Below, piece by piece: positions 1-25,886 of a DNA stretch of 25,886 nt. The notes under the pieces were generated by a model. That model was not told where the DNA came from. It saw nothing but the letters and a program-made list of their open reading frames with translations, and made no database searches. The position numbers and the translations under genes were made by a program. Location: positions 1-25,886 of the IMG/VR virus record IMGVR_UViG_3300043449_000641. One strand, written 5' to 3'. Numbering within the stretch: the first letter of the stretch is position 1; each line of letters starts with the position of its first letter. This DNA is from a virus.

Positions 1-688
1 TTCCTTTGTAGGTGAACACACGATTTTCAGCATCAATGAATTTGTAAATGTTCACATATCCGAATGCAGAATCATATCCAGTCACCTTCACACAAGTCAA
101 AGTCAATTCGATTCTTTGACCAGCTTCAAAATGATGGTCTTCTTTTTCAAGTGATTTTTGTGCAAGAAATTCAGTGTTCTTTTCAAATTGTTCACAAGAA
201 ATGAAACCATTTCGGACACCGATTCTGTTTTCCATTTTTCCAAGATTCATTGAAACTGCAATTTCTTGTGCAATCTTGCAGAAATCTTGACCACCAAAAT
301 AATGGTTGCACCAGTCACCACTTTTTTCATCTTGAAGTGGTGAACCTTTTGCAATCCACTTGATGAATTTTGGGTCACAATCTTTCAATTCTTTTCCGTA
401 ATTTTTACCGAATCGAACCATCGAATCAGTCCATTTGTAAACTTTCACAATGTCATTCAAGTCACGTGTGTTGTCAAAAACAAGTGATGCATCAACACCG
501 ATTCTTTTTGCATATTCATGTGCTTTTTGAAGTGCAACTTCTGAATCAGTTGAAAGATTTTTGACAAATCGTGGTTTCACGTATTGTGAACCATTGATGA
601 AGTCAATCCACAATGTGTGCATCTTGTTCTGTTTTCCTTGTTCAACAAGAATGATTCTTTGTGGGTGTGCTTGTGTTTGTGCTTCCAT
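1..688 (-). CDS. Hypothetical protein, possible DNA-metabolism protein (3' end outside window)
   Basis: The reading frame is open from the ATG at 688 to the window edge (about 229 residues, no stop), so the C-terminus is missing. I do not recognise the whole protein. Around residue 95-115 it has FGKNYGKELKDCDPKFIKW, which resembles the short FGKYxGK...DPxYIxW motif of exonuclease X C-terminal/DUF3820-like domains. The last visible part (about residues 187-229) is an alternating beta-rich stretch, GQRIELTLTCVKVTGY then VNIYKFIDAENRVFTYKG, that could be an OB-fold; both assignments are inferences. The A-rich leader TAAAAAACAGAACAAA precedes the ATG and is nearly identical to the leader of the gene at 716-1075, 27 bases upstream. 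A third copy of the leader core lies inside this gene before an in-frame ATG at 619-621, so a shorter product is possible. It is probably transcribed from the promoter at 1103-1131. Confidence 0.75.
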   Translation of the reverse strand, partial: MEAQTQAHPQRIILVEQGKQNKMHTLWIDFINGSQYVKPRFVKNLSTDSEVALQKAHEYAKRIGVDASLVFDNTRDLNDIVKVYKWTDSMVRFGKNYGKELKDCDPKFIKWIAKGSPLQDEKSGDWCNHYFGGQDFCKIAQEIAVSMNLGKMENRIGVRNGFISCEQFEKNTEFLAQKSLEKEDHHFEAGQRIELTLTCVKVTGYDSAFGYVNIYKFIDAENRVFTYKG

Positions 689-715
689 TTTGTTCTGTTT
701 TTTAGTGTTCTTAAA

Positions 716-1075
716 TTAGTCAATCATTTCTTTTGCAATGTTTTCTGCAATTTCTTTGTTCCCATCAAGGTCAATGTTTTTGATGACATACTTCAATGAC
801 TTGATGACCATCAACCACGAATTGTTGTCAATCTTCTTGTCATGTGAAATTTCAAACATTTCTTCGAAGTGTTTCACTTGCCAGATTTTAAGTTCAAACC
901 CATTCCAACCGAACAAAGTTTCTTTGAATAAAAAGATTCGGTCATTTGCAAGTGACACAAAAGAAAAAACATCTTTTTTCAAATATGCAAAACAAACACG
1001 TTCAAAGTGTTCTGCAAATTTGATGTTGTTTTTCAATGTAACTAATTGATTTTGAAGGTCTTGTGTTGTTTTCAT
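716..1075 (-). CDS. Hypothetical protein, 119 aa
   Basis: I do not recognise this protein. It is a mixed helical protein of 119 residues with an aromatic middle (FSFVSLANDRIFLFKETLFGW, roughly residues 37-57, here split as FSFVSLAND then RIFLFKETLFGW) and a charged helical C-terminus ending AENIAKEMID. No signal peptide or membrane segment is apparent. The frame is open further upstream to 1207, but the longer version would read through a terminator hairpin and a promoter, so I place the start at the ATG at 1075, directly after the A-rich leader TTAAAAAACAGAACATC. It is the first gene of a small transcription unit that begins at the promoter at 1103-1131 and continues into the gene at 1-688. 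Its position after the lysis cassette suggests a non-structural gene of a separate expression class. Confidence 0.7.
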   Translation of the reverse strand: MKTTQDLQNQLVTLKNNIKFAEHFERVCFAYLKKDVFSFVSLANDRIFLFKETLFGWNGFELKIWQVKHFEEMFEISHDKKIDNNSWLMVIKSLKYVIKNIDLDGNKEIAENIAKEMID

Positions 1076-1102
1076 GATGTTCTGTTTTTTAATGTTCATG
1101 TG

Positions 1103-1131
1103 CAAATATACATCTTTTTTCTTTTCTGCAA
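1103..1131 (-). promoter_or_regulatory. Bacteroidota-type promoter for the leftmost two genes
   Basis: On the minus strand TTG (1131-1129) is followed after 18 bases by TATATTTG (1110-1103), a good match to the Bacteroidota sigma-70 pattern TTG-N17~21-TAnnTTTG. It lies just downstream of the terminator at 1161-1197 and 28 bases before the ATG of the gene at 716-1075, so it would restart transcription after the lysis genes. This is the best two-box promoter I can see in the window. Confidence 0.65.
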
Positions 1132-1160
1132 CACCTGAACGAAAAAAAACCAGAAAAATT

Positions 1161-1197
1161 TTTCGAATAAAAAAAACCGACATGGTTTCTGTCGGTT
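1161..1197 (-). terminator. Rho-independent terminator after lysis cassette
   Basis: Read on the minus strand, AACCGACA (1197-1190) and TGTCGGTT (1182-1175) form an 8-bp stem with a 7-base loop, followed by six T, an A and further T-rich sequence (1174-1166). It lies 22 bases after the stop of the endolysin-like gene and would end the late operon. Confidence 0.75.
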
Positions 1198-1218
1198 CAC
1201 AATTCAATCAAAAATTTG

Positions 1219-3996: not shown

Positions 3997-5607
3997 TCAA
4001 ATGTTTGTCGGTTTTTGATATTTAGTTTGAATCAGAATTCCAGTTCCATCAACAAAAGAAACACTTTGACCACTATTGTTGAAAAATGAAAAATAAAAAC
4101 CACCAGTGACAAAAGGGTCATTTGCGTTTGCAGTGTATGAAATAAACACGTGTTGTTGTCCAGTGTAGTCACCATTTCTTTCAATTGTAATCGGTGAACC
4201 GATGATTGAATCATCAGACCATCTTCGAAGTGACAATTGATAAAAATTGTTTGAACCGACTGCAATGTTAAAATTCACACGAATTTCATGTTGCAATCTT
4301 TGTCCATTGTAGGCAGTGTTCAAATAAGGAATCACAATATGGTCTGCAATTGCAGTGTTCAAAGTTCCAGAAAGATTTCCAGTCAATGTTGTGATTGTTA
4401 TTGTGTTCAATGTCGCATTTGTTCCACCAAATTTCAACACACCAGTTTGTGCAAACACTTGAACACCAAGTGCAAGAAGTGTTGATTGATGTGCAGTCAC
4501 AAAATCAGTTGCAGTTTGTGTCAATGTAGTGTTGAAAGTTGCAAGATATGGAACACCATTGATGATGATGTTTGCAGTTCCATTTGTCCCAGTCAAAGTC
4601 AAAAGTCTTCCATAGGAAATTGAATATTCATCATAAGAAGTTGTTCCATTCAAAACTTTGTCGGTGTCTGTGAAAAAAGAAACACCATTTGCAGTTTGTC
4701 CAGTTGCAAGACTGACTGGTGCTGGAAGACTTTTTGACCATTGTGTTGAACTGAAATTTTTAAACGAAGCAAGATTCATCGGTTGAAATGAAGTATTTCC
4801 AAGACCATCAGTGGTCAATATGTCACCAGAATTTGAACCATCAACATCTGGCAAATTGTATTCTTCATTGATTCGAATTTTTCCATTTTTCAAAACTGAA
4901 ATTTTATCAAGACCAACACCGACACCCCCTTTTTTTCTTATTTTGAACAATGCACCACCAGTCAAGACATTTGCTTCTTCAATGTCAAACCACACACCAT
5001 TTTGTGTGTCAATTCCATTTGCAGATGTTTGAAAAATAAAACCATTGTGGTCAAGAAACCACAAGTTGAAAAATGCACCTGAAACAATTCTGTCTGACAA
5101 CAATGCACCATTTGAATTGTAAAGGTTGACTGCTGATGGAAGTGGTGTGAATACTATATTTCCAGAACCATCAGTGACCATGACTTCACCAGCATTTCCA
5201 TCTGTCAATGGGAATGTGTATTCTTGATTAAATGTGATTGAACCATCTTGATTCACACCGAATCTTCTTGTTCCATCTGATGAATCAATAATTGTGAAAA
5301 GTCTTCCAGATGGATTGACATTGAATTCAACACCATTTGCACCGAATGGTGCTGGATTGACATTGATTGTGAACTTTCGAAGATTGTCAAACAAAAGTGA
5401 ATTCAAATCTGCATCAAGAATTCTGTCACCAGTCAACACACCATCTGATGTGTAAATGTTTGAAATCAATGCTTTCAACACTGAACCTTTGACTTTTGCA
5501 GTCTTATATGTTGAATCAGATGTGTCAAACCAGTCAATGTCAAAATAGTCATCATCACCGATGACAAATCTTTCAATTGCATATCCATTTATATTTTGTG
5601 AACTCAT
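3997..5607 (-). CDS. Tail fibre protein
   Basis: This 536-residue protein has repeated fibre-type motifs: TDGNAGEVMVTDGSGNIVF (about residues 137-155) and DGSNSGDILTTDGLGNTSF (about 255-273), each after a QEY/EEY...P strand, as in many Bacteroidota phage fibre stalks. A second repeated unit is SDGVLTGDRILDADLNSLLF (about 54-73), echoed by SNGALLSDRIVSGAFFNLWF (about 164-183). The region about 335-420 (GTANIIINGVPYLATF to NLSGTLN) looks like a separate beta domain, followed by a C-terminal beta-sandwich-like part that may bind the receptor. Family knowledge supports a trimeric fibre; the receptor role is inferred. The start ATG-AGT creates one of only three GAG/CTC trinucleotides I found in the window. 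The leader is CTAAAAAATAAAAAT, and the gene starts 11 bases after the upstream stop. Confidence 0.8.
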   Translation of the reverse strand: MSSQNINGYAIERFVIGDDDYFDIDWFDTSDSTYKTAKVKGSVLKALISNIYTSDGVLTGDRILDADLNSLLFDNLRKFTINVNPAPFGANGVEFNVNPSGRLFTIIDSSDGTRRFGVNQDGSITFNQEYTFPLTDGNAGEVMVTDGSGNIVFTPLPSAVNLYNSNGALLSDRIVSGAFFNLWFLDHNGFIFQTSANGIDTQNGVWFDIEEANVLTGGALFKIRKKGGVGVGLDKISVLKNGKIRINEEYNLPDVDGSNSGDILTTDGLGNTSFQPMNLASFKNFSSTQWSKSLPAPVSLATGQTANGVSFFTDTDKVLNGTTSYDEYSISYGRLLTLTGTNGTANIIINGVPYLATFNTTLTQTATDFVTAHQSTLLALGVQVFAQTGVLKFGGTNATLNTITITTLTGNLSGTLNTAIADHIVIPYLNTAYNGQRLQHEIRVNFNIAVGSNNFYQLSLRRWSDDSIIGSPITIERNGDYTGQQHVFISYTANANDPFVTGGFYFSFFNNSGQSVSFVDGTGILIQTKYQKPTNI

Positions 5608-8145: not shown

Positions 8146-9863
8146 TCATCAATTCTTATTGTTGTCACTTTTCCGTTTGACCATTGTTGTCTTTGTTTGT
8201 AGGTTATTTTGCAAAAGTTCTTTTCATCAATCCAGTCACACTTCAAAATTTCCGACAAAACACCATCAATTTCAGCGAAATTGTTGTCTTGCAAAGATAC
8301 GAAATTCGAACCAGTCAATCGAATTCTGACATCATTTTTCACAATGTAGTCATTCAACTGAATCTGGTTGATGTAGTGAAACCGATTCCACAATGAAAAT
8401 GCAGAAACTTTGTCAAGATAGTTTGAAGGTTGTTTTCCATTGACACACCACAAGATTTTTGTGGTTGAAAAGAATTGTTGTGATATTTGAAGACAATCTT
8501 TTCTGTCTGTGATTTGTTGTGCAAAGTTAGTTCCACCACCAAAAACACCAGTGACAGAATCAATGACTTCTGCAACTGATTTCCCCAAAATTTCAAACCA
8601 GTCAAGTTCACCTTTTCTTGCACCAAGTGAAAAAGGAATTTGCACTGATTGAAGACCTTTGATTGAAACAAGGTCTGCATTCACAACATTCAATGGTTCA
8701 GTTGAAAATTCTGCAAATGAATTGTCATATACTTTTCCATCAATGGAATGAAAATCTGTGAAGTCTGCTTGATATTTGATGAAATATCTTTTCCAAGAAT
8801 CTTCAACATTGTATTCGAATGCATCATCACGTTCTGATTGAAGTGAAAGTGCTGGTGTCAACTGCAAGGTTGTTTGATTTTCCCACCAGTCACGTCTTTC
8901 AATTCTGACAACACCATTGTTCACTTTTGTTTGTGCATTGAACATCAATTCAACTGCTTGAATCAATTCACCAAGTGTTTGAACTGAATCAGATGTTGAT
9001 GGTGTTCCTTTCGTGAATGCATTGTTCAAAAATGCTGGTTCATATCCAAAAATTGACATTCTGTCTTTGACAAGTGGAACTGGAAGAATTGTCCATTGTG
9101 GTTCTGAATCAAAAAGTGTTGATTGAAAAGTGAAACCAAGATGTTGACAACCTTTTGTCAATAATTCTTTGACTTTGCAACCTTTGAATTTCCTTTTCGG
9201 TGGAAATAACAACTGCAAAAGTTTTGTTGCAAGGTCAATGACCACAGAAAGAATTGCAAGAAAATAAATGAATCTTGCAGTTGCTTTGATTGAAAGTGCA
9301 ATCACGTCACCAGTGTCAACTGATGGTGGAACACTTAAATTCAACGTAATTGCTTGAACAAGTTCAGCAGTTGATTGTGCAAGTTCTTTTGATGCTTCTG
9401 CAAGTTCTTTTCCCATGATGAACAATGTGATTGACAACGACACTGCTTGTGCATATCGGTCAGGTGGAATCACAAAATAGTCAATCATTTCAAAATTGAA
9501 TTGAACATTTTTTGACAACATCAAATCGAAAGTTGTTCCATTTGCTTTGTCAAAGAAGTCATCTTGACCTTTTCTTTTTTTCAATTTGACTTCGATGTCA
9601 TAAAGTCTTTGAATCACACCATCAGTCAAATCAACATACATTTCAAGTGTCACACCTGAATCAAGTTGCACTTCATAGGGAATTCCTTCAAAGATTCCTT
9701 GTGTCTGAATATGTTGTTTCACGATGTCAAATGCTTCACGTGGCAAAACAACCGAATCAGTTGACAATTTCAAGACATCTGGATTTTCAGAAAAATCAGA
9801 AACAATTCCGATTTCACTTCGATTTCGTGGTGAAATTTCCACACCATTCAAAAAATGTTTCAT
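8142..9863 (-). CDS. Distal tail / tail-tip hub-like protein with hydrophobic segments, 573 aa
   Basis: The gene directly follows the tape measure (ATGA overlap), where siphoviruses encode distal tail and hub proteins. The N-terminus (about 1-95) starts MKHFLNGVEISPRN and is beta-rich, with short strands ending in LYDIEVKLKKRKG. Residues about 139-152 (AVSLSITLFIMG) and about 190-220 (an uninterrupted stretch including FIYFLAILSVVIDLATKLLQLLF) are strongly hydrophobic and flanked by helical segments. The C-terminal half (about 250-573) is soluble and beta-rich, containing VRIERRDWW and the ending SNGKVTTIRIDE. Hydrophobic helices in a tail-tip protein could remain buried until infection and then insert in a membrane; this is inference. 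Family not named with certainty. Confidence 0.7.
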   Translation of the reverse strand: MKHFLNGVEISPRNRSEIGIVSDFSENPDVLKLSTDSVVLPREAFDIVKQHIQTQGIFEGIPYEVQLDSGVTLEMYVDLTDGVIQRLYDIEVKLKKRKGQDDFFDKANGTTFDLMLSKNVQFNFEMIDYFVIPPDRYAQAVSLSITLFIMGKELAEASKELAQSTAELVQAITLNLSVPPSVDTGDVIALSIKATARFIYFLAILSVVIDLATKLLQLLFPPKRKFKGCKVKELLTKGCQHLGFTFQSTLFDSEPQWTILPVPLVKDRMSIFGYEPAFLNNAFTKGTPSTSDSVQTLGELIQAVELMFNAQTKVNNGVVRIERRDWWENQTTLQLTPALSLQSERDDAFEYNVEDSWKRYFIKYQADFTDFHSIDGKVYDNSFAEFSTEPLNVVNADLVSIKGLQSVQIPFSLGARKGELDWFEILGKSVAEVIDSVTGVFGGGTNFAQQITDRKDCLQISQQFFSTTKILWCVNGKQPSNYLDKVSAFSLWNRFHYINQIQLNDYIVKNDVRIRLTGSNFVSLQDNNFAEIDGVLSEILKCDWIDEKNFCKITYKQRQQWSNGKVTTIRIDE

Positions 9864-12800
9864 CTTTTCACTTTGTATTTGTTGAAGATTGTTGTGTTCC
9901 CTTTTTTTGTTTTTTCAATCATTTCAAAGAACGTTTGTGTGATTTGACCGATTTCAAAATGATGTTCAGGTTTGTTTTCAATCACACTTGTCAAGTTGTC
10001 AAGTTTTTGAACCAGAATTGCAGTGTCCATTGCAGAACCGATTTGTGAATCATTTCTGGTGAACACCTTCATGTTCTGATATTCAACTGCAAGTTTTGTC
10101 AATTGTTCATTTGAAAGATTTCCGATTTGCTGGTTCAATGATTTCGGAATCACACGTTCATTCGGGTGCAGAACTGCATGAAATCCACCACGACCATCAA
10201 CACCACGACCATTTGAACCAGTGTCTTCTGTTCCATCAAAGAATGCTGGAATCGAATTGATGAATTGTGTCAACAATGTGATGTCTTTGATGGTGTCTGC
10301 AAGTGGTGTTTCTGAACCATTTTCAACTTTTTGTGAATACGTTGTCAAAGCAGTTTCAACCAGTTTGATTTTTTCTTGTTTCTTTTGTTCTTGAAGTTTC
10401 TTTTTGTTTGCTTCATCAATGATTTTCTGGTTTTCTGCAAGTGATTCTTTTGCACTGATGTTCCCATTCTTTGCAAGTTCTTCAAGTGCAGTTTGATTTT
10501 CTTCTGCTTTTGCAATTTCCTTGTCAAGTTGTGCAATTTTTTCTTCTGATTTTTTGATGAAATAGTCAGCAGATGCTTTGATGATTTCTTGAATTGCTTG
10601 TTGTCGCTTCTTCATGTCTTCAATTTCATCATCAGTCATCTTCTTGTTCATTTCACGTTTTTTGTTGTTTGTATTTTCAAAATCATTCAACAATTTTTCA
10701 TTTTCAGTCTTCTTTTCATCAGTGATTTTTTCATCAATCTTGATGACATCATCAGCATAAGTTTCATCAATTTTGATTTTCTTGATTCGAAGGTCATCTT
10801 GCATTTGTGCAATTTCAACATCAAGTTCTTTTTGTCTTTGTGTGTAACTTGCTTCAATTTTGTCTTTGTCTTTTTGTGTGATTCCTTCTTGTGCAAGAAG
10901 TTTGATTTTTTCATCAAGAAGTTTGTTTTGTTCTTCAAGAATTTTGTTTTCAACTTCGATTGAAAGTGTTTGTTTTTCAAATTCTGCACGTTGTTTCAAA
11001 TTTAATTTTTCCAGATTTGCACGTTCCTGAATTTTTCGATTCAATGAAGTATTTGAAGAAATCAATTTTTCCAGATTTGCTTGATGCACTTTGTCTTCAT
11101 CAATCAATTCACCTTCTGCATTTTGTGTTGGTGTTGCAAGTTGAACACCCAAAACAATTCCAGAACCTTCTTCAATCTTTTTTTGTGCATTTTCAATGAT
11201 TGTTTCAATGTCATCATTGATTTTCTTTATCTGTCTGTCCTGATTAATCATTTCAAGGTCTTGAAGAAGTTGTCTTGATTCTTGCAAATAGTCATTGACT
11301 GCACCAAGTTCTGTTTTGAATTCTTTGACACTTCCAGTTGCAGTGTTGACCGAACCAGAATAACCACCAGTTGATGTTGTTGCTTGTTTTGATTTGTAAC
11401 TATATTTTCCAAGTGCATCTGCATTTGACATCGTGTTTTTTGTCAAATCTTCAAGGTCTTTGTTGATTTTTCTGCTTTGACCAGCAAGTTCTTCAAGTTC
11501 AAGTGCAGTTTTTCCGAAAATACCCCCTTTTCCAAGTGCATTCATTGTTTTCGAATCAACAACAAGTGAAAAATCACCAGCAATCAAATTTTTTCTTGTG
11601 TCTTCTGAAACACCGATTTTTTTGATTCTTTCGTTGATTAGTTCTTGTTTTTTCAATAAGTCTGTGAATTTTCCTTCATTTGCTTGTTGTTTGTATTGTA
11701 GTCTTTTGTAGTTGATATATTCTTGAACTGCAAGATTCAATTGATTCTGAAAAGCAGTTTCATCAGAAAGATTCTTCAATGTTGTTCCATATTGTGAATT
11801 TATTTTGTCAATCAAAGAAAGTCTTTCACGTGAATTTGCATTTGTTCCTTTCAATTGATTAATCAAACCGACAAATTCAGTTGTTTCTTTTGCAACCCAT
11901 TCTGCACCTTCTTCTGTTTTTCGGTTCATTTCTTCAAGTGCTTCTTTTCGTTTCACTTCTTCTTCACGTGCTTTTTCAGTTGCTTCTGCACTTTGTTCAC
12001 TTGCACCAAAATAGTCATAAAGTGCAAATGCAAGTTCTGTGACTGCAACTGCAATCAAACCCCAAGGTGTGCCCATCATGGTTGTTTTCAATGCTTTTTG
12101 TGAAGCATTTGCAGAATTTGTTGCAAGTGTCATTGTTTGTGTTGCACGTGCAGTTTGAAGTTGTGCAAGTCTGTATGCACGTGTGAATGGAATGTTTTGC
12201 ATGATTGATTTTCCGATTCCATTGAAACCAAGTTCTGCAAGTTTGTTGTATGTGTTGACCATCATGATGGTTGCTTTGTAAACCAACCACATTCTAACTG
12301 CTTGACCACCAAGATTGATAATTGTTCCAAGATTTTGTGCAAGAAAATCAAGAATTGCACCGAATGTTCCAGTCACATGACCAGATGCATCAATTCCAAG
12401 AACATATTTGTCAAACGCATTGACAAGTTTGTCAATTTTTGCTTGAAGTGTTTCATTCTTTTTGTTGTATTCATCAGTGATTGAATCTTGTTTTTTCAAT
12501 GATTCAGTTGCAAGATTTGTTCTTTTTGTTAACAAGTCAGTATTTGTTGATAATTTCAAAAGAACTTCACTTGCACCAGCACCATCAAGTTTCAATCCAT
12601 CAAGTGCAGTTGCAAGACCAACTGCGTCACCTTTGAATTGTTTTGTTCCTTCGACAACTTTCATGAATGCACCCATCAAGTCAGTGTTGACAAGATTTGC
12701 AAATTCTTGTGTGTTCATTCCAGCAATCTTTGAAAAACCTTCTGTGTCTTCTGCCATTTTTTTCAAGATTCCACTGACTGCCGTTCCACCACGTTCAGCA

Positions 12801-16379: not shown

Positions 16380-17066
16380 ATTTAAACAATTTTCTTTGAA
16401 TCGTGTCAAGGTCAAACGAAGTTCAACACCAGACAAATTTGCATCAAGAATGTTTTCAAGAACACCTTCACGTGTTTCAACACCGAATCTGGAAAATGTC
16501 AACACTTCAAAATCATCAATTCTTTTGTAATTCCGATTTTTTTTCAACACTTGCATAAATTCTTCAACAAGTGCATTCATCGGTTTCACAACCTGAATTC
16601 GATGGTCTTTTGTGTAAAATTGTCGAATGTTCGTTTCATCAAGAAAGAAGATTCGAATTTCGCTTTCATAATCAAGTGCAGAATCACGACCAAAAGAACG
16701 AAATCTGATTGAATCAAGAAACCACACCAGTGGTGTTTTTTCCAGAAGAAAATTCGTGTTCTTTGTCCATTCTGAATTTGTTGACTTTCGTGTTCCAGTG
16801 ATGAAGAATGGTTCATCAATTGTGATGATTCCTTCAAGACTGGTTGTGTTCAGTGGGTCAACTGGTTCAACTTTCAACCATGCATCAACTTCAAGGTCTG
16901 TGACAACATATTCATTTCCAGATTCATCAAAGACTTTTTTTCCTATTCGAACCCATTTTGTGTGACACACATCAGTTCTGTCTTCAACAATGTTGAATGT
17001 TCCAGTGATGGTGTTGTCAATCTGTGACACCAGTTGTTCGATATGTTCTGAAATGTCTTCTTTCAT
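16374..17066 (-). CDS. Neck / tail-completion-like structural protein, 230 aa
   Basis: The gene lies between the connector and the tail-tube genes, the place of head-closure and tail-terminator proteins. The protein is mixed alpha/beta with GTFNIVEDRTDVCHTKWVRI, a charged DSALDYESEIRIFFLDET stretch, and a C-terminal beta hairpin-like end (SGVELRLTLTRFKENCLNC). A central TDLEVDAWLKVEPVD tract fits a small beta-barrel such as head-closure proteins have. I do not recognise the exact family. Its ATG overlaps the connector stop as ATGA, so the two are likely made in linked amounts. Its stop lies within the leader of the tail-tube gene. Confidence 0.65.
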   Translation of the reverse strand: MKEDISEHIEQLVSQIDNTITGTFNIVEDRTDVCHTKWVRIGKKVFDESGNEYVVTDLEVDAWLKVEPVDPLNTTSLEGIITIDEPFFITGTRKSTNSEWTKNTNFLLEKTPLVWFLDSIRFRSFGRDSALDYESEIRIFFLDETNIRQFYTKDHRIQVVKPMNALVEEFMQVLKKNRNYKRIDDFEVLTFSRFGVETREGVLENILDANLSGVELRLTLTRFKENCLNC

Positions 17067-18331
17067 ATCCAGTAGTTGAATAACTTTTGAACACCCTTGA
17101 ATTTTGTGAAGTCACCGATTCCGACATAAGTGATTTTCATCAAACAATCATTGTTCCCACCATTGACAATGAACAAGTCATTGACTTGATAATTTGAACC
17201 AGATTGATTGATTGTGAATTCAGTGACAGAACCATCAGTGACACTTGTCAATGTGATTGTTGCATCAAGATTTCCAGAATCAATTGTCAACACTTCACCA
17301 CCGACATAATTTTGACCAGCAGAACCAGTTTCAACTTCACACGTCAAAACTTCACCAGTCAATGCATCGGTTGTGATGTTTACAATCAAACCAGTTCCAG
17401 AAACAGAACCAGTTGTTGTGAAACTTCCATCAACATAACCAGTTCCAGATGCAGAAAGAAAGAACCCATCAACACCACCGATTTCATTTGCAACAATGTC
17501 AAGTGTCAATCCAGTTCCATCAGAAGATGGTTCAGTGATTGATGTCACTTGCAAGAATGCATCGAAATTTCCAGCATCAATTGACACAATTTCGTTCACA
17601 TAATATCCAGAACCAGCATCAACAATCGTGAAAGACAGAATTCCACCAGCACCATCATCAACAATGTCAAGTGTCAATCCACTTCCAAAAACACCAGTTG
17701 TTGTCACACCACTTGCAGTTGAATATCCAGAACCGATTGCATTCAAATTCAATGTTTCTGGAACACCAGAAAGATTTGTTTGAACATCAGTTGCAGTTGA
17801 ATATCCAGAACCACCAGTTCCAAGTGACATCGTGAATTCAAAATCTGCTGAAATGACTTGACCATTTGTGGTGTTTGTCTGATTCAGAAGAATGAATTCC
17901 TGAATTGCTTTGTATGTCTTGACTGCTTCATTGTAACGTGCATACATCATCGAATTCAAAGTTGACACAAGTGTCGAATTTTCTGATTTCTGCTTGACAT
18001 TTCCGAATGGTGTCATCTGGTTCATCAAGTCTTTTGCATACTCAAAATAAATGAAACCTTTCAACATTTCCTTGATTCCTTCTGAAATCAGAAGTCTGTT
18101 GAAATACACATTGACTTCAAATGGGTCAAATATCTGAATGAATGTCGGTGACAATGGAATTTTTGTGACTGAATCAATGTCAGACATAAATTCAGCATAC
18201 AAATCTGCACCAAGCAGTTCAATCAAATATCTTTTTTCATATCGGTCAATGTAGTCTTGCAACTTGTTCTGGTCATACATTCCAGTGTGCAATTCGTATT
18301 TTCCAACAAAATCAACGTATGTCAAAAACAT
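17063..18331 (-). CDS. Head-tail connector with inserted GSGY repeat domain, 422 aa
   Basis: Residues 1-155 look like a helical head-tail connector/adaptor of Bacteroidota phages (LTYVDFVGKYELHTGMYDQN, DRYEKRYLIELLGADLYAEF, then YARYNEAVKTYKAIQEFI), similar to DUF6712-type proteins. The extreme C-terminus, GDFTKFKGVQKLFNYWI, also fits that family. Between them, residues about 165-400 are a glycine-rich beta-repeat region with six GSGY-type turns (near 175, 200, 240, 296, 338 and 378). Pairs of strands also recur (GLTLDIV twice, GLIVNIT once; DAGNFDAFLQVTSI, DSGNLDATITLTSV). Such repeats are known from fibres and decoration proteins of marine phages; here they appear inserted in a neck protein. 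The repeats keep DNA identity. The leader is ACTAAAAAAATAAAGAACC, and the gene precedes the neck gene with an ATGA overlap. Confidence 0.75.
   Translation of the reverse strand: MFLTYVDFVGKYELHTGMYDQNKLQDYIDRYEKRYLIELLGADLYAEFMSDIDSVTKIPLSPTFIQIFDPFEVNVYFNRLLISEGIKEMLKGFIYFEYAKDLMNQMTPFGNVKQKSENSTLVSTLNSMMYARYNEAVKTYKAIQEFILLNQTNTTNGQVISADFEFTMSLGTGGSGYSTATDVQTNLSGVPETLNLNAIGSGYSTASGVTTTGVFGSGLTLDIVDDGAGGILSFTIVDAGSGYYVNEIVSIDAGNFDAFLQVTSITEPSSDGTGLTLDIVANEIGGVDGFFLSASGTGYVDGSFTTTGSVSGTGLIVNITTDALTGEVLTCEVETGSAGQNYVGGEVLTIDSGNLDATITLTSVTDGSVTEFTINQSGSNYQVNDLFIVNGGNNDCLMKITYVGIGDFTKFKGVQKLFNYWI
17491..17812 (-). repeat. Direct DNA repeats within connector repeat domain
   Basis: Two pairs of long identical stretches lie in the GSGY region: 17491-17513 equals 17659-17681 (23 bases), and 17713-17734 equals 17791-17812 (22 bases). 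Both are in frame with protein repeats, so the domain can expand or shrink by recombination. Confidence 0.85.
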
Positions 18332-18673: not shown

Positions 18674-19870
18674 TTACAAGTCAATTGAAGTGATTGCAGT
18701 TGCAATTGTTCCTTTGACAAACGCATTGACATCATTCAATTTCACATAGTGAACTGCACGTGCTTCTGCAAGAATTGTCACCATGTTTCTTTTGAAGTCA
18801 TCACTTTCATATCCGACTGACAAATTCACGTTTTCACGAACTTTCAAGTTTGCACGTTTCATGTCACCAACAAGGAAATTTCCAGCAGTCATGTATGTTG
18901 TTGAAACAACAATCAAGTTTGCAATTTTCATTTCGTTGTTTTGTGATGGATAGAAAATCGGCATTGTGTATTCACCAGAAGTTGTTTTTGTCAATTGCAT
19001 TTTTGCAACATCAACTGGATTAAGAACAACGTGTGTTGCATTGAACTTTGCAGATTCAATTTGTGCAACTGAAACACGAATCACATCAAGAATGTTTGCT
19101 TGAACAATTGTTCCAGCGAAAGTTCCAGCAGAAAATGTTGATGCAAAAGAAAGAATTCCTTCAAGGTCTGAACCACCAGCACCATTCAAGATTGAATTTT
19201 CCATTTTTCCAAGAACACCTTGAATCAAATCATTGTTGATTTCACCTTGAACGAATGCAAGGTCTGACAACATTTCTTTTGAAACCTTCACGAATCCAGC
19301 AACTTTCTTCACTTCTTTCGAAATTTCAGTGTATTTTTCTTCGTATTCAGTTTTTGCAGTTGCTTCTGTGACCCATGCACCAGTTGGTTGTGAAGTTTGT
19401 TGAATATATGTCACAAACTTTGATGCAGTTGTTCCACGATTCACTGCATTCAACAAGATGTTTTCTTGTCTTGCAATTCGGTTGATGTCTGAATCAAGTT
19501 CAGTCAATGCACGTGTTCCAGTGTAGTCACCAGTGATTGTTGTGTCTTTCACTTCAAGTTCAAATCCTTGACCACCTTTCAATGAATCAAGTTTTTCAGT
19601 GATTGATTTTGCAACAATCGAACCCATTGAAGAAGGTGTTGAACCATTCTTTTGTGCTTTTTCTGACATTGCTTCAAGTCTTCCTTCCATTTTTGCAATA
19701 GACTTTTCAATTTCAGAACTTTTTTCAGACAGACTTTTCAATCCATCAAGTTCAGTTTGCAAATGCTTCACATCATCTGATGTTGCAACACTTGTCATTT
19801 TTTCAGAAATCATGTTGTCAATCTTTGCGACAACTTCTTCTGGTGTCAAATTTGTGTTTTTTTCTGACAT
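18674..19870 (-). CDS. HK97-fold major capsid protein, 398 aa
   Basis: Gene order (portal, prohead protease, then this) and sequence both fit an HK97-type major capsid protein. Residues 1-105 are a charged coiled coil (ELDGLKSLSEKSSEIEKSIA), the typical N-terminal delta/scaffolding domain removed by the upstream protease. The shell-forming core follows, with TELDSDINRIARQENILLNA, GAWVTEATAKTEYEEKYTEI (E-loop region), KVAGFVKVSKEMLSDLAF (spine helix) and a C-terminal part including HVVLNPVDVAKMQLTKTTSG and VREN...GYESDDFKRN, all characteristic of the family. The leader TTTAATTA, a run of A's and GAAA before the ATG is nearly the same as that of the tail-tube gene and suggests very strong translation. 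The cleavage site cannot be fixed from sequence alone. Confidence 0.92.
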   Translation of the reverse strand: MSEKNTNLTPEEVVAKIDNMISEKMTSVATSDDVKHLQTELDGLKSLSEKSSEIEKSIAKMEGRLEAMSEKAQKNGSTPSSMGSIVAKSITEKLDSLKGGQGFELEVKDTTITGDYTGTRALTELDSDINRIARQENILLNAVNRGTTASKFVTYIQQTSQPTGAWVTEATAKTEYEEKYTEISKEVKKVAGFVKVSKEMLSDLAFVQGEINNDLIQGVLGKMENSILNGAGGSDLEGILSFASTFSAGTFAGTIVQANILDVIRVSVAQIESAKFNATHVVLNPVDVAKMQLTKTTSGEYTMPIFYPSQNNEMKIANLIVVSTTYMTAGNFLVGDMKRANLKVRENVNLSVGYESDDFKRNMVTILAEARAVHYVKLNDVNAFVKGTIATAITSIDL

Positions 19871-19894: not shown

Positions 19895-20644
19895 TTATTT
19901 TTCTAATTTATCAAGAACGAATGACCAGTCAAACGAATCAACTGACTTGTGTTCAACTGAATGAATCTTTTGAATCGGTTCAGTTGTTGCAAGTGTCGAA
20001 AGTTCTTGTGTCAATCTTTTGATTTGCATTTCAATTGTGAACAATCTGTCATCAGTTCCTTTTCCATTTGCAAGTGCTTTGACCAGCACATCAATTTCTT
20101 GTGAAACTTTGACTGCACGTTCAATTTTGTCTTCTGATTTGATGACTTCAACCACGTTTGTCATTTCATTTGCACCAAATGTCACTGCACTACCCTCCCA
20201 CAACATGACTTCTTTGATTTCGAAGAAACCACCACCATCAATTGAAGGGTCTTCAATCCACTTCATTTTGTCCATAATGTAACGAAAACCGATGGAATGT
20301 TCACGAATGATTCCATCTTCGTAATCTTTGAATGCATCTTCACCGATGGTTGACCTTCCAAGTTCACCAACTGCAAAAAGACCATTGTTGTCTTCTTGAA
20401 GTGTCACGAATTTTCCGATTTGTTTTGTCCAGTCATGGTGTCGAAGGAATGCAATCTTTCGATTTGATGCAGAATCAACACCATGTTCAAGAAGTGATTT
20501 TGCAAATGCACCTTTTCGAATCAAGTCATTGTCTGAATCAATCACATCGAATTTTGACAAATAGAATGCAACTTGTCTTTTCGATGCATCAAGGTCTTTC
20601 AATTCGAATGACCCCTTTGTTGAATATAGTTGTTCAGTTTTCAT
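19895..20644 (-). CDS. HK97-type prohead protease, 249 aa
   Basis: The protein matches the S78 prohead protease family: an early beta strand block with DVIDSDNDLIRKGAFAKSL, the histidine motif FLRHHDWTKQIGK (His69/70 when counted from the chosen start) and the nucleophile region EHSIGF (Ser117). LWEGSAVTFGAN is the conserved C-terminal strand of the protease core. It would cut the scaffold domain from the capsid protein and then degrade itself. Residues about 165-249 form a charged tail that may act as an internal scaffold. The start is the ATG at 20644; an upstream TTG two codons earlier is less likely. The Glu of LWEGSAV is encoded by the only GAG codon I found in the window. A TAACTTTG element precedes the gene. 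Confidence 0.88.
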   Translation of the reverse strand: MKTEQLYSTKGSFELKDLDASKRQVAFYLSKFDVIDSDNDLIRKGAFAKSLLEHGVDSASNRKIAFLRHHDWTKQIGKFVTLQEDNNGLFAVGELGRSTIGEDAFKDYEDGIIREHSIGFRYIMDKMKWIEDPSIDGGGFFEIKEVMLWEGSAVTFGANEMTNVVEVIKSEDKIERAVKVSQEIDVLVKALANGKGTDDRLFTIEMQIKRLTQELSTLATTEPIQKIHSVEHKSVDSFDWSFVLDKLEK

Positions 20645-20656
20645 TTTCAATTTTTA

Positions 20657-20668: not shown

Positions 20669-21880
20669 TTAAACACCAACAATGGAACGAACTTCATCTG
20701 GTGTCAAACCGATTCCCATTGCTTGAATTTTTTCAAGTGCTTCTGCACGTGTTTTCATTGAACGTGAAATTGCAAGTTCATCATCTGCAAGAACTGGAAG
20801 ATGGTCAAATTCTGCAATCAAACGAACACCATCTTTTTCAAGACCAAGTTGATTCGTGATTGAATCGTAAATCTTTTGCGTTTCAGGAATGATTGTGTCT
20901 TGATAGCACATTCGTATTGAATCACGAACATTTGTGAATGTAGTTCCTTTTTCAGATGAAAACAGATTCATTGAAAGACCGAATGCATCAATCAATGCAA
21001 TCTTGTCTGCATTCAATTCTTCGAACAACATCAAATCTTTTGTTGGAAAAGACATCGGTTGCCACTTCACATTTGATTCTGTGATGATTAGTTCATCTTT
21101 GCTTCTTCTGAACCAGTCTTTTTGAATTTGCTTTTTGTCTTCTGGTGTCATAGGTATTGCACCACCGATGTCATTGTTTTGTGCAGACAAGATTCCGATT
21201 GCACCGATGTTTTCAAGAAGAACATTTCGTTTTTTGTATTGTGCTTTCAAATTAGACAACACGAATTTCAATGATTCAAGTCTTGAAACTGGTTTGACAA
21301 GATTCATTCCATCATTTGTCATCAAATAAACCATGTCAGTGACTTCGATGTCTTCTGTCTGCTTTGTGTCATATTGAAAAACGTATTTGTCAATCAATCC
21401 ATTTTTGTCCATTTGCTTCAATTTTTTTCCAGAAAGATTGATTTGAACTTTGTTTGATGGAAGTGGAATCATCATGTTCACAATGTTGAATGACCTTTTT
21501 GGTGCATAAATGAATGTATTTGAATAAATTCCATCTTGCACTGCAATTGAAAAGACAAAGTCAGACCATGATTGTGTTGGATTCGGTTTCTTCAATACAT
21601 CACTGAACCAGTGGTTTGTGACTTCATTTCCATCTTTGTCAACAAGACAAGGTCTGTTTGATGACATCATTGATGCACGTTTTTCAATCACTGCACGAAG
21701 TTCAGGAATTTCAATGAACAATTTCCACAAGTCATTTGTGTCAACCCACACTGGTTGTTTGACACCCCAAATTTGTGATTCAAGAATCGGAAATAATCGG
21801 TTCAGTTGATTGATGAATCTGTCATCAGTGTTCAATTCGATTCCGAAAAATGACTGCCAGAAGTTAAAATCATTGAACAT
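20669..21880 (-). CDS. Portal protein (HK97 family), 403 aa
   Basis: The gene follows the terminase large subunit and precedes the prohead protease. The 403-residue protein has the features of HK97-type portals: an N-terminal helical region with IEIPELRAVIEKRASMMSS, the wing strands (DMVYLMTNDGMNLVKPVSRL), a glycine-rich turn followed by TPEDKKQIQKDWFRRS, and LMLFEELNADKIALIDAFGL followed by the FSSEKGTTFTNVRD stretch seen before the clip/stem helices. The C-terminus ends LTPDEVRSIVG, as portals often do. It forms the dodecameric DNA channel at one capsid vertex and docks terminase. The leader AATTAAAAAAAGATATT precedes the ATG; a TAACTTTG box overlaps the stop of the terminase gene upstream. 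Confidence 0.9.
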   Translation of the reverse strand: MFNDFNFWQSFFGIELNTDDRFINQLNRLFPILESQIWGVKQPVWVDTNDLWKLFIEIPELRAVIEKRASMMSSNRPCLVDKDGNEVTNHWFSDVLKKPNPTQSWSDFVFSIAVQDGIYSNTFIYAPKRSFNIVNMMIPLPSNKVQINLSGKKLKQMDKNGLIDKYVFQYDTKQTEDIEVTDMVYLMTNDGMNLVKPVSRLESLKFVLSNLKAQYKKRNVLLENIGAIGILSAQNNDIGGAIPMTPEDKKQIQKDWFRRSKDELIITESNVKWQPMSFPTKDLMLFEELNADKIALIDAFGLSMNLFSSEKGTTFTNVRDSIRMCYQDTIIPETQKIYDSITNQLGLEKDGVRLIAEFDHLPVLADDELAISRSMKTRAEALEKIQAMGIGLTPDEVRSIVGV

Positions 21881-21902: not shown

Positions 21903-21910
21903 CAAAGTTA
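21903..21910 (-). promoter_or_regulatory. TAACTTTG promoter-like box before the portal gene
   Basis: The TAA stop codon of the terminase large-subunit gene forms the first three bases of TAACTTTG on the minus strand, followed by TAAA, as before the protease gene. It matches TAnnTTTG, but no convincing -33 box is present. Confidence 0.35.
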
Positions 21911-23278
21911 GTGAATTGTTTTGAACATTGCTTGAATGAACATTGAAAGACCAGCAGAACAATCTGGTGCATCATCATTCTTGTTTTTTCCTTCTTTGCT
22001 GAATGACAACACGTTCTGAATGAACAATTCTTGTTGTGGTGAACCAGTCTTGACAAACACAAACTTGTTCATGATGAATGCAGATTGCATGATGATTCTG
22101 GTCATCTTGTTGGTTGTGTTTGGAACAAGAAGGATTCTTGAAGATGTGTGTTGTTGAAGTTGTCTTCCAAACATTGCACCGATGTTGTTTGATTCAACAC
22201 GACAATATGACACCGACCACTTGTTCAAGATTTCTGCACACAATGGAATGGTCACATCAGTGTTGTCACGTGTGAAGACATAATCAACAATGAAGACTTG
22301 ATTCTTGATGACTGCACCGACAATCATTGCAGTGTAATCAAGACCCATGTCAGCAGTGTCAATGTATGCGACACAACCTTCAATTGAATCTTTGATTGAA
22401 TTGAATTCATCTGAATCAATGAAGTTCAAGTCATTAAACAATCGACCTTTCAAGTCAACTGGTTCTTGTTGATATTCAGCAGACCAGATTTCTGGTGCAG
22501 TCTTCTTTCGTTTGTCAAGATATTCTTCTGTGGTCATCACTGATTCACAGAATGAATTGTCATTGTCATCAAGTGCTTTGACTGAAATGATTCTGTCATA
22601 AGAACCAGATTCAATGTTTTTTCCGATGACATCATTTGTTGTCCATCGTGTTCCGATGTCAATTCGTTTGCAACCAGTTTCAAAACGTGAATCATGTGAA
22701 GATTCCTTCCATGCATGAATTCGGTCATTCATTGAATCTGACAATGCATCTTCGATTCCACGATACAAGTCATCTGTGATTGCAACATTCGATGCACCGA
22801 ATCCGATGATTGTTCCACCAACACCAGCACCGAAATATCCAACTTGTTTTGATTTGTTTGTGTTCCACCCTTGAAGATTTGATTTGTCTTCACTGATTCT
22901 GACATCTGGAAAAACTTTCTTGAACACATCAGACTTCAAAACATTTCTGACATCGTAGGAAAATTTCAAAAACAATGTTGCAGTGCAAGTGTTACGCATC
23001 ACAGATTCAGATGGATTCCGACCAAGTGTCCATGCACAAAACAATGTTGTCAGATATGACTTTGCACTTCGTGGTGGCATTGAAACCGACAATGATTTGA
23101 TTCGACCTTCTTCAATGTCCTGAAATGCATCTGCAACTTCTTGAAGAAATGGTCTTGACTTGAACAATTGTGGGTCATAATACAAGCAGAATGACCAGAA
23201 ATGTCTTCGACACAATTCGTGTTTCAACAATTGCTTCAAATGACCTTTGTCAATCTTCTGATTCTGAATCACTTGCAT
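21908..23278 (-). CDS. terL: Terminase large subunit, 456 aa
   Basis: The ATPase domain has a Walker A-like motif SMPPRSAKS (residues 66-74) and Walker B with catalytic acid in VAITDD (165-170). The nuclease domain has the expected acidic residues: AYIDTADMGLDYTA (Asp307 and Asp310), RVESNNIG (Glu362) and DDAPD (435-439). The protein therefore has both the packaging motor and the headful or site-specific cleavage activity. It works with the small subunit encoded upstream and the portal encoded downstream. Walker A has Ala where most ATPases have Gly before Lys-Ser, a variation that is tolerated in some phage terminases. The ATG lies 29 bases inside the end of the small-subunit gene, after TATTGAAAGAAG, so the two are translationally coupled. 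Confidence 0.95.
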   Translation of the reverse strand: MQVIQNQKIDKGHLKQLLKHELCRRHFWSFCLYYDPQLFKSRPFLQEVADAFQDIEEGRIKSLSVSMPPRSAKSYLTTLFCAWTLGRNPSESVMRNTCTATLFLKFSYDVRNVLKSDVFKKVFPDVRISEDKSNLQGWNTNKSKQVGYFGAGVGGTIIGFGASNVAITDDLYRGIEDALSDSMNDRIHAWKESSHDSRFETGCKRIDIGTRWTTNDVIGKNIESGSYDRIISVKALDDNDNSFCESVMTTEEYLDKRKKTAPEIWSAEYQQEPVDLKGRLFNDLNFIDSDEFNSIKDSIEGCVAYIDTADMGLDYTAMIVGAVIKNQVFIVDYVFTRDNTDVTIPLCAEILNKWSVSYCRVESNNIGAMFGRQLQQHTSSRILLVPNTTNKMTRIIMQSAFIMNKFVFVKTGSPQQELFIQNVLSFSKEGKNKNDDAPDCSAGLSMFIQAMFKTIH

Positions 23279-23768
23279 CTTCTTTCAATAGGTTGACAAT
23301 GTCTTCTGTGGTCAATGCAGACAAATCTGGTGTCTTGTTGTTGACTTCCAGTTCTGATTTTTCAACATATCCACGTGACTTTGCTTGTGTTTTCAAAAAG
23401 AAAATTATCATGGTATCTGAACCTTCTTTGATGCGTTTGAACATCTGTGATTCAACAAAGTCAATTGCACTTTCACGAATCGAATTGACTTCACGTGCAA
23501 ATTGTTCATCTTGATGACACCAGTCATAAAAAGTTGACCGATGGATTCCCACTTGTTCAACTGCATTTTTGACAACACCATTCGACATTTGCAGTGCTTC
23601 AATGATTTGTCTTTTTTTTATGTCGGTTGTGTCTGCGAGAAAAACACTTTGATTTTTCTGTTTTCTTGTCGTTTTTTTGACTTCTGGTGAACTTTCTGTC
23701 AATTCATGACCATTCGGTTGACTGACATCAAAATTCTTCTTCTGATTGAATCTTTTCGTTGTTTTCAT
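23250..23768 (-). CDS. terS: Terminase small subunit, 172 aa
   Basis: The position directly upstream of the large subunit and a helix-turn-helix at about residues 53-85 (QIIEALQMSNGVVKNAVEQV, then GIHRSTFYDWCHQDEQF) identify this as the DNA-recognition subunit. A central helical region (FVESQMFKRIKEGSDTMIIF) fits the oligomerisation domain, followed by an acidic disordered end (EDASDSESED) that may contact the large subunit. Residues 1-45 are basic and probably disordered. I start at the ATG at 23768 (MKTTKRFNQ), two bases after the upstream stop; the frame is open a further nine codons. The only CTC codon I found in the window (Leu44, in VFLAD) lies in this gene. Confidence 0.85.
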   Translation of the reverse strand: MKTTKRFNQKKNFDVSQPNGHELTESSPEVKKTTRKQKNQSVFLADTTDIKKRQIIEALQMSNGVVKNAVEQVGIHRSTFYDWCHQDEQFAREVNSIRESAIDFVESQMFKRIKEGSDTMIIFFLKTQAKSRGYVEKSELEVNNKTPDLSALTTEDIVNLLKEDASDSESED

Positions 23769-23770
23769 TT

Positions 23771-24234: not shown

Positions 24235-24245
24235 GTTTTGAATTT

Positions 24246-24313: not shown

Positions 24314-24317
24314 TTTG

Positions 24318-24349: not shown

Positions 24350-24616
24350 CCAGCAGAAACCAGTGTCATCAATCTTGACTGAATGCACTTCGATTTTGTT
24401 GAATTCAAGAAACTTCACGAATGAATTCATTGACTTTGAAACATATCTTGATTTCCAGATGATTTTTGTGACACCATTGATGTCATCATCATCTTCATGA
24501 ATGAACTGGAAAAATTCAGATTCGATTCCGAATCCATGCAAAAGACAGACAATTGTTTTTTTTGATGGAAAACCATTTTTGAAATCAATGAACACAACTA
24601 TCTTCTTTTTTTCCAT
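24323..24616 (-). CDS. Hypothetical protein, 97 aa
   Basis: This 97-residue protein is not recognised. It begins MEKKKIVVFIDFKNGFPSKK, a strand-turn-helix start, has an acidic patch HEDDDDING in the middle and ends in a beta stretch (EVHSVKIDDTGFCWLKFVQ). Composition fits a small soluble alpha/beta protein of the early or accessory class. It starts 12 bases after the 35-residue ORF at 24629-24736, and its stop codon overlaps the TAAATTTG promoter box. It appears to be the last gene of the right-hand cluster. Confidence 0.6.
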   Translation of the reverse strand: MEKKKIVVFIDFKNGFPSKKTIVCLLHGFGIESEFFQFIHEDDDDINGVTKIIWKSRYVSKSMNSFVKFLEFNKIEVHSVKIDDTGFCWLKFVQKKT

Positions 24617-24628
24617 TCTGTGACACTT

Positions 24629-24736
24629 TCAACCATCGTGTGAACAAAAACCTTGTTCAAGCATTTTTCTTCTTTCAGATGCAATGAATGTCATGTGTCT
24701 GATTATTCCTTTGAATATATTGAAAGCAGTTTTCAT
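24629..24736 (-). CDS. Very small protein, 35 aa
   Basis: A 35-codon frame begins with an ATG that overlaps the stop of the zincin-like gene by one base (TGATG), the same coupling seen at 24001. The product is basic and helical (MKTAFNIFKGIIRHMTFIAS, then ERRKMLEQGFCSHDG). No family is recognised; the ending with Cys-Ser-His could bind a metal but is too short to judge. It fills what would otherwise be a 119-base gap in a densely packed cluster, which is the main reason to believe it. Confidence 0.45.
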   Translation of the reverse strand: MKTAFNIFKGIIRHMTFIASERRKMLEQGFCSHDG

Positions 24737-25197
24737 CAATTTTGACAGATTTTGCAGATTTGACTGACTGGTTCTTCAATAACAAGATGCAATGAAGGAA
24801 ATTTCAATTCATGCATGATTTTCTTTGCATACAATTCTGCATCTTCAATCAATCTTTCTTCAAATTCAGGGTCTTGAATCAATGTCGGATTTTTTATCAA
24901 TTGCATTTCACGAAAGTGAAACATCAAATGTGTTGTTTCATGCATCACAAGAAGTGCAGATTCCCAAATTGTCAATTCAGACATTGTTTTTGAATTCAAG
25001 AAGATGAATGGTTTTCCATCGTGAATCGGTGAAATGTTGCAAAGTCCATCAATATATGAACCACCTTCTTTCAATCTTTGACAACATGAATCAAAGTCAA
25101 GACCATGAAGTTCTGATGTGTTGAAATACCAGAACAAATCACGTGGGTCATCACTGACAAGAAGAAGAAAATCTTCAATGTTTTTTTTTATCATCAT
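24736..25197 (-). CDS. HExxH zincin-like metallopeptidase, 153 aa
   Basis: The protein has VMHETTHLMFHF with HETTH at residues 86-90, the zinc-binding and catalytic HExxH helix. About 25 residues later it has EERLIEDAELYAKKIM (about 113-128), whose acidic residues can supply the third zinc ligand, as in gluzincins such as ImmA/IrrE-like peptidases. Upstream strands (GKPFIFLNSK, then MSELTIWESALL) fit the strand before the active-site helix. Family knowledge: ImmA-like enzymes cut repressors to control mobile elements. Here the target is unknown and no repressor gene is in the window. An additional Cys pair at the C-terminus (CKIC) is present. The start overlaps the upstream stop by ATGA; an alternative start is the second Met. 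Confidence 0.65.
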   Translation of the reverse strand: MMIKKNIEDFLLLVSDDPRDLFWYFNTSELHGLDFDSCCQRLKEGGSYIDGLCNISPIHDGKPFIFLNSKTMSELTIWESALLVMHETTHLMFHFREMQLIKNPTLIQDPEFEERLIEDAELYAKKIMHELKFPSLHLVIEEPVSQICKICQN

Positions 25198-25385
25198 GAT
25201 TCAATTGTTTTTCGTGGTGGAACAATAATCAATGCACCATTTTTTGCAACACGTTTGAATTCAGCTTCGTTTTCTGGAAGTTCAATTGTTCCATTCTGGT
25301 CAATTTCGTATTCGACACCCTTTTCATCAGTTGCAGTTGTGATGACTTCTGGTGACATAAATTCAGACCATGTGATTGTTTTCAT
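25194..25385 (-). CDS. Hypothetical small protein, 63 aa
   Basis: This 63-residue protein (MKTITWSEFMSPEVITTATD...) has a short beta-rich centre (GVEYEIDQNGTIELPENEAE) and ends in VPPRKTIES. It is not recognised. I start it at the ATG at 25385, after the A-rich leader TAAAAATCGAAAAC, rather than at 25418 inside the preceding gene. A TAAATTTG element at 25407-25400 lies 14 bases upstream. The stop overlaps the ATG of the zincin-like gene (ATGA), so both are probably made together. Its size and acidic character would suit a partner or inhibitor of that enzyme, but this is speculation. Confidence 0.6.
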   Translation of the reverse strand: MKTITWSEFMSPEVITTATDEKGVEYEIDQNGTIELPENEAEFKRVAKNGALIIVPPRKTIES

Positions 25386-25399
25386 GTTTTCGATTTTTA

Positions 25400-25407
25400 C
25401 AAATTTA
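25400..25407 (-). promoter_or_regulatory. TAAATTTG promoter-like box
   Basis: The minus strand has CGTAAATTTG, identical over ten bases to elements at 14997 and 24318. Its TAA is the stop codon of the gene at 25405-25611. No good -33 box was found. Confidence 0.35.
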
Positions 25408-25611
25408 CGAAATTTCAAGTTGCAGTGAATATCTGAATTCCTGAATCAATTGATGAAGGTGTTTTCGGTCAAGAACTTCATCAATGTCACATGATGCATT
25501 GACAAACATTGTCTTTGTTCTGACATTCAATCTGATGTCTGACATCTGTTTGATTCTGGTGTGAAGATGAAATTTTCTTCTTTGTTCTGGTGAATAAGGT
25601 CTTTTTGTCAT
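25405..25611 (-). CDS. Hypothetical small basic protein, 68 aa
   Basis: This 68-residue protein has a basic start (MTKRPYSPEQRRKFHLHTRI) and a helical C-terminus (LDRKHLHQLIQEFRYSLQLE). It is not recognised; composition suggests a soluble, possibly nucleic-acid-binding protein. Its ATG overlaps the stop of the preceding gene (ATGA), and its own stop lies within a TAAATTTG promoter-like box. Confidence 0.6.
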   Translation of the reverse strand: MTKRPYSPEQRRKFHLHTRIKQMSDIRLNVRTKTMFVNASCDIDEVLDRKHLHQLIQEFRYSLQLEIS

Positions 25612-25886
25612 TTCACAATGATTTCTGTCGGTTTCACATCTGTTGTTCTGAACACCTTGATTCCCATGATGAACAATTCTTTTGAAATGTCATATTTGAA
25701 ATTCTGAATCTGATTTGAACATTCATCAGAAATAAATTTCACGCATTCAGGGTGCATCACAATGATTGATGGTTCTTCAAACTTGAAAGTGATTTGATGA
25801 ATTTTGTGAAAGATTTCTTCCATCAGTTGAAAATATGTTTTTCCTTCAAAGTGATTCATCTGTTTGAATGTGATTGATTTCAATGT
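25608..25886 (-). CDS. Hypothetical protein, 5' end at or beyond window edge
   Basis: The frame is open to the right edge, so the true start may lie outside the window; within it, a TTG at 25883 or the ATG at 25859 (MNHFEGKTYF) are possible starts. About 92 residues are visible, with helix FQLMEEIFHKIHQI and strands PSIIVMHPECVKFISD and ELFIMGIKVFRT. The pattern (helix, IIVMHP strand, then GIKVFRT) resembles small virion or capsid-fold-like fragments only loosely, and I do not assign a function. It is coupled to the next gene by an ATGA overlap. Confidence 0.55.
   Translation of the reverse strand, partial: TLKSITFKQMNHFEGKTYFQLMEEIFHKIHQITFKFEEPSIIVMHPECVKFISDECSNQIQNFKYDISKELFIMGIKVFRTTDVKPTEIIVK

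Follow-up and report, generated by a model that had tools for sequence, protein, structure and literature searches.

The DNA considered here is the complete IMG/VR contig IMGVR_UViG_3300043449_000641 (25,886 bases, in the following called the window), a part of the genome of a tailed phage, that is, an uncultured bacterial virus, in which the trinucleotide GAG and its complement CTC are nearly absent. The tailed phage is marked by its head and packaging genes, which encode the terminase subunits, a portal protein, a protease and an HK97-type capsid protein. Nearly all genes of the window are located on the minus strand (Table 1). Two fuller relatives, G001 (31.6 kb) and G002 (34.6 kb), also harbor replication genes that are missing from the window record; those of G001 include genes for DnaB, ERF, NinG, DUF6291 and DUF3127 proteins. 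Several genes of the window and its relatives are without known function.

Table 1. Selected features of the window, including the four GAG/CTC sites that remain.
Feature	Positions	Strand	Remark
Terminase large subunit	21908-23278	-	probe used for finding relatives and for the tree
Portal protein	20669-21880	-	
Head maturation protease	19895-20650	-	contains residual GAG site 3
Major head protein (HK97-like)	18674-19870	-	
Probable tape measure protein	9860-14083	-	judged from its length, its location and a sequence resembling coiled coils; no profile match sought
Longest interval with no gene assigned	1-715	.	zero GAG, zero CTC
Residual site 1	5603-5605	-	coding-strand GAG formed by the start codon ATG followed by AGT
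Residual site 2	18041-18043	-	coding-strand GAG within the gene at 17063-18331; overlooked in the sequence-only reading
Residual site 3	20195-20197	-	coding-strand GAG in the head maturation protease gene
Residual site 4	23637-23639	+	plus-strand GAG (coding-strand CTC) in the terminase small subunit gene

An exact count yields one GAG (23637-23639) and three CTC (starting at 5603, 18041 and 20195), a total of four sites, and the longest stretch free of both words extends over 12.4 kb. A first-order Markov model predicts 206 GAG and 252 CTC (about 458 in total), such that the depletion is about 100-fold, with a log2 ratio of about -6.8. When the synonymous codons of the genes are shuffled, with proteins and codon usage retained, 131 +/- 9 GAG and 131 +/- 9 CTC are expected; the coding strand of the genes contains 3 GAG and 1 CTC versus 262 expected jointly. 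The Poisson probability of at most four sites given 262 is about 1e-106, which excludes chance. The loss affects both strands, all codon phases and also intergenic DNA, whose 1,148 bases contain no GAG/CTC versus about 16 expected. Codon usage and dinucleotide content are rejected as a cause by the shuffled-codon and Markov expectations. Selection at the level of messenger RNA is likewise rejected: nearly all genes lie on one strand, and GAG and CTC are both gone, also between genes. The level at which the loss operates is therefore double-stranded DNA rather than codons or messenger RNA.

The near-absence of both words had been recognized in a sequence-only reading of the window, and in this respect it stands. 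Its count of three sites does not, as the CTC at 18041 was missed and that at 20195 was misplaced by one base. The expectation of a few hundred copies per strand was of the correct size, and the argument that a preference for GAA as glutamate codon is insufficient is borne out by the shuffled genes. The depletion does extend over codon-internal and codon-spanning positions of both strands. The possibility it had raised against itself, namely that dinucleotide or codon-usage null models predict the same depletion, does not hold for either model run here. It had also held that AGGAGG ribosome sites are ruled out. This is trivially true and unlikely to matter, because in Bacteroidota, the probable hosts, translation mostly does without Shine-Dalgarno sites.

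The target of the loss is sharply three bases, and flanking bases hardly matter. Pooled over twelve GAG-depleted related records, GAGA, GAGC, GAGG and GAGT occur at 1.6%, 1.7%, 1.8% and 3.7% of expectation, respectively, and the base preceding GAG has a small effect (2.0-4.2%). Among the words one base away from GAG, AAG, CAG, GAA, GAC, GAT and GTG are in the window at the level of ordinary relatives or above it, and low counts are shared by GCG, GGG and TAG. We note that GCG and GGG, like GAG, lie far below ordinary relatives and GTG above them, and G-V-G may be a wider pattern. Glycine codons depend on the base that follows: before G, 162 of 164 are GGT and none is GGA, whereas before A the codon is GGA in 165 of 178 cases. 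In G002 the only context with an excess is GAGT, and the excess is mild. Since any GAG is removable by a synonymous change, a fall to about 1% is possible without a change of protein.

In the terminase tree the window groups with G001, G002 and L004 (support 98/93). G001 contains a single GAG/CTC versus 549 expected and G002 contains 53 versus 540, and the records L103-L118, which were found by replication genes and of which some derive from the same contig, are at 0-6% of expectation. A search for relatives with the 573-residue structural protein of the window gave no matches. Throughout the clade, where the other lost words vary, GAG/CTC remains at 0-10% of expectation, and the loss is ongoing. 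G001 and L104 are 90.1% identical with 773 isolated differences, 3 of which change a GAG versus 58 expected by random placement; AAG-changing and CAG-changing differences number 187 (148 expected) and 137 (112 expected), respectively. For other pairs of relatives, observed over expected GAG-changing differences are 0/23, 0/21, 1/21 and 5/18. In another relative, G007 (L072-L073), GAC/GTC is reduced to about 0.1, and the pattern is strongly strand-asymmetric, with coding-strand CTC nearly absent and GAG common, unlike the window.

GAG is accompanied by a number of other lost words. With expectations beyond 3- or 4-base composition, and a word regarded as eliminated if observed/expected is below 0.1 with an expectation above 15, the window has eliminated GATC (0/113), ACNGT (0/37), CTNNAG (0/38), GGATG (0/24) and CTGAAG (0/22), in addition to GAG (4/458, with the first-order Markov expectation). 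Absent at smaller expectations are CTGCAG, GCNGC and CCGG (each 0/13), GTAC (0/12), GGNNCC (0/11) and GCNNGC (0/9). The edges are sharp in that near-identical words are present, for example ACNNGT (126/124), CTNNNAG (60/50) and GANTC (201/172). Most of the palindromic words match known restriction enzymes. CTNAG was dropped as an independent word: its order-3 expectation is only 1.6, and its absence follows entirely from the missing GAG/CTC and TA. The set of lost words varies among relatives. GGATG is kept in G001 (60/65) and G002 (67/64), G001 retains some GTAC, and L104 and L115 have some GATC. Words that are lost in some relatives and kept in others are the signature of restriction-site avoidance. 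Most depleted genomes have eliminated 9-16 words each (in up to 20 kb), compared to 1 in G009 and 5 in G010, two relatives with ordinary word usage, and 0-2 in other Bacteroidota phages. The overall vocabulary is also reduced: the window contains 3,063 distinct 7-mers where an ordinary relative of the same length has 6,047, and its number lies below the Markov predictions of orders 1 to 4.

A further class of anomalies concerns dinucleotides. TA occurs in the window at 0.16 of expectation and survives mainly in unavoidable tyrosine codons, CA/TG is at 1.75, and the TA values of the clade lie between 0.15 and 0.34. TA-changing differences between relatives show a mild shortfall only (149 versus 226 expected). 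In sister lineages other dinucleotides are affected: AG/CT is at 0.08-0.18 across L069, L083, L087 and L056 (0.08 in L069, 0.12 in L087), together with low TA, and L088 and L089 have CA/TG at 0.30-0.35 with TA enriched to 1.5-1.64. L089 additionally lacks CTCC, CATC, ACNGT, GCNGC and GANTC. These two-base effects may share a cause with GAG, in that one pressure acts on them additively and less strongly, or they may have another origin.

One region of G002 departs from the depletion of its genome. In the tip of the tail fiber (33.4-34.6 kb) TA is at 0.75-0.90 and GAG is found 13 times versus 15 expected, compared to a TA of 0.31 and 31 of 481 expected GAG in the genome core. Two variants of the same tail-fiber end are carried by the contig ends (L068:16400-17610 and L067:1-512). 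GATC is absent from the tip, though few copies are expected there. In the simplest reading this host-recognition part was recently acquired from an undepleted source and would since have been subject to slow purging; near-normal GAG and TA would be expected from a purging that takes time.

The hosts are probably Bacteroidota, judging from sequence relationships: three of the four loci in bacterial genomes that are distantly related lie in Bacteroidota (42-48%), and the nearest capsids among isolates are those of Flavobacterium phages. The fourth locus, L098, is an 8.9-kb contig binned as Rhodobacteraceae (probably misbinned) in which AG is at 0.32. There are no tRNA (transfer RNA) genes that could serve as a host clue. 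In 395 Bacteroidota genomes, a small sample, a replication-module protein had no match and short, spacer-like DNA matches were never clear, being gene fragments or at chance level. As to modification of the phage DNA, no match to PF01555 or PF00145 and none above cut-off to PF05869 was found in the window (an incomplete genome), G001, G002 or the L104, L106 and L110 records. The modification chemistry that the sequence-only reading had proposed as a possible cause is thus not supported, with none of the three methyltransferase families above cut-off in the window and its closest depleted relatives, although several of the genes lack a known function. DNA methyltransferase genes do occur in the relatives G009 and G010, whose word usage is ordinary, and in G005, whose usage is depleted. 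Within this small sample, and apart from G011 and G005, the distribution of methyltransferases fits methylation and site loss being alternative answers to restriction.

Taken together, we consider it somewhat likely, and likelier than any of the alternatives below, that GAG/CTC was purged by purifying selection from restriction-type DNA defenses of the hosts, one of which would recognize GAG itself. Of the causes listed in the sequence-only reading, the one with most support is a restriction or defense target that has GAG as its core, on the grounds of the three-base boundary, the loss on both strands and in intergenic DNA, the co-lost words and the scarcity of differences that create GAG. The hosts would possess many sequence-specific DNA defenses in a changing repertoire, and the phage, in which no modification gene was detected, would survive by dropping each target word (GATC, ACNGT, CTNNAG, GGATG, CTGAAG, CTGCAG, CCGG, GTAC, GCNGC, GGNNCC and others). 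At least one old defense, common to the hosts of the clade, would target GAG/CTC on either strand and be largely indifferent to the neighboring bases; candidate agents are a nuclease, a nickase or a base-modifying enzyme with a specificity of about 3 bp. The case would then be one of extreme restriction-site avoidance, with GAG as one item among the lost words.

Several observations weigh against this reading. None of the lost words could be matched to a host defense. Restriction enzymes do not account for the two-base effects, namely the loss of TA and, in sister lineages, of AG or CA/TG. G011 has no methyltransferase match yet few eliminated words, and G005 carries a methyltransferase yet lacks most GAG. 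A natural restriction enzyme recognizing GAG was not found described, such that GAG falls outside the words with a known enzyme. The sites of CviJI, SetI and FaiI are degenerate palindromes. These three are the only restriction enzymes listed with a recognition sequence of less than 4 bp (PMC5948728), and in a survey the avoided sites were almost exclusively orthodox Type II (PMC6286503). It is a tentative proposition, to be taken as one joint reading, that a host defense or a phage nuclease with a true non-palindromic 3-base target GAG/CTC removed 90 to 99% or more of the sites clade-wide, and that this target would be shorter than any natural non-degenerate restriction site found described.

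A related possibility, which we regard as unlikely, is a base-modifying or nicking defense with a target of about three bases rather than classical restriction-modification, for example a DarT-like ADP-ribosyltransferase acting on the T of single-stranded CTC or a nickase at GAG, with a small additive cost per site. Replication would expose both strands to such an agent, and an additive cost would permit gradual loss from hundreds of sites. Natural short targets exist, such as TYTN for DarT2 of enteropathogenic Escherichia coli (PMC13368585), 3-7 bp for nicking enzymes (PMC8845596) and CCA for a phosphorothioate system (PMC11931770). However, neither the host nor such an enzyme has been located, none of the members found described has GAG/CTC as its target, and this DarT2 itself is unfit, as TTT, which is covered by TYTN, is abundant in the window.

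Mutational or repair bias, with GAG/CTC (and TA) hypermutable in this lineage and lost without selection, appears rather improbable. It would account for a genome-wide, lineage-specific pattern and for the CA/TG excess (1.75) that accompanies the loss of TA, as CA and TG are the products of TA transitions. A level of about 1% GAG, however, needs mutation about 100 times faster than that of neighboring words, and we know of no process that does this. For relatives that are 90-94% identical, such a bias predicts by our estimate that new GAGs appear at perhaps 20-30% of the rate for random placement; 3/58, 0/23, 0/21 and 1/21 are seen. The choice of the third base is moreover "whatever is allowed", transversions included (GGT before G, GGA before A), and GATC, ACNGT and CTNNAG are exactly absent. 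An unusual mutational pattern alone, as had also been suggested, is disfavored by the low number of GAG-changing differences between relatives.

The phage might also avoid its own weapon, if a phage nuclease degrades host DNA at GAG/CTC and spares the word-free phage, an idea to which we give little credence. GAG loss is stable and clade-wide while other words turn over, several genes are functionally unassigned, and a NinG-like protein is encoded in G001 and G002, the G001 copy being weakly similar to the Septu protein PtuB. Yet NinG is an ordinary phage recombination protein with nothing linking it to GAG, and the remaining lost words still need a host explanation. Even less credence is due to a general shrinkage of vocabulary without a GAG-specific agent, in which many longer GAG-containing targets of Type I, III and IIS systems add up. 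The halved 7-mer vocabulary, which falls short of Markov orders 1 to 4, is in line with this idea, but every GAG context is depleted about equally, most words one base away are unaffected, avoidance of Type I and III sites is rare among phages (PMC6286503), and the partial depletion of G002 shows little context structure apart from the mild GAGT excess. Finally, there is a very slim chance that GAG or CTC is the protospacer-adjacent motif of a host CRISPR (clustered regularly interspaced short palindromic repeats) system: the size of three bases fits, and Kupczok and Bollback (2014, PMC4246573) report such a motif to be depleted on both strands in phages of CRISPR-bearing hosts, but as a small statistical shift with log2 ratios there on the order of -0.1 to -0.2 versus about 100-fold (about -6.8) here, no clear spacer-like match was found in the small sample of 395 Bacteroidota genomes with the host unidentified, and CRISPR gives no reason to purge every copy because it acts on chosen protospacers.

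With respect to known systems, avoidance by host-defense selection most closely resembles what is described for non-temperate phages that have eliminated orthodox Type II sites (Rusinov et al. 2018, PMC6286503), with complete or near-complete loss of specific words, among them 4-base and gapped palindromes. Unlike in those cases, about a dozen words are lost in one 26-kb record, one of them a non-palindromic 3-base word, together with a weaker loss of TA. Recognition of less than 4 bp is known for CviJI, SetI and FaiI as well as for 3-base nicking enzymes (PMC5948728, PMC8845596), none of which was found described with a GAG/CTC target. The defenses DarT2 and SspABCD have targets about as short as GAG with different motifs, TYTN and CCA (PMC13368585, PMC11931770), and we found no description of phages responding to them by losing the motif genome-wide. 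Nor did we find, in the open-access literature, any phage reported to have lost a trinucleotide almost completely. Restriction-site avoidance is textbook knowledge and is known for sites of 4-6 letters, whereas none of the cutting enzymes that we found described accounts for a 3-letter word being lost almost entirely.

Within the window, 6,806 of the 77,658 possible point mutations (about 9%) create a GAG or CTC. Near-total loss of a 3-base word would need this fraction to be selected against, and such a pressure would be unusually strong and steady. If the agent is a defense enzyme with 3-base specificity, it would represent a frequent cutter or DNA modifier of a new class, with use in the laboratory, and it could be found from the phage side, with the words absent from phage genomes as a readout of uncharacterized host defenses. 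Under the reading of a true 3-base target, the sister lineages stripped of AG/CT or CA/TG would record other defenses with targets of 2-3 bases. The family, with different short words missing in sister lineages, constitutes a natural experiment.

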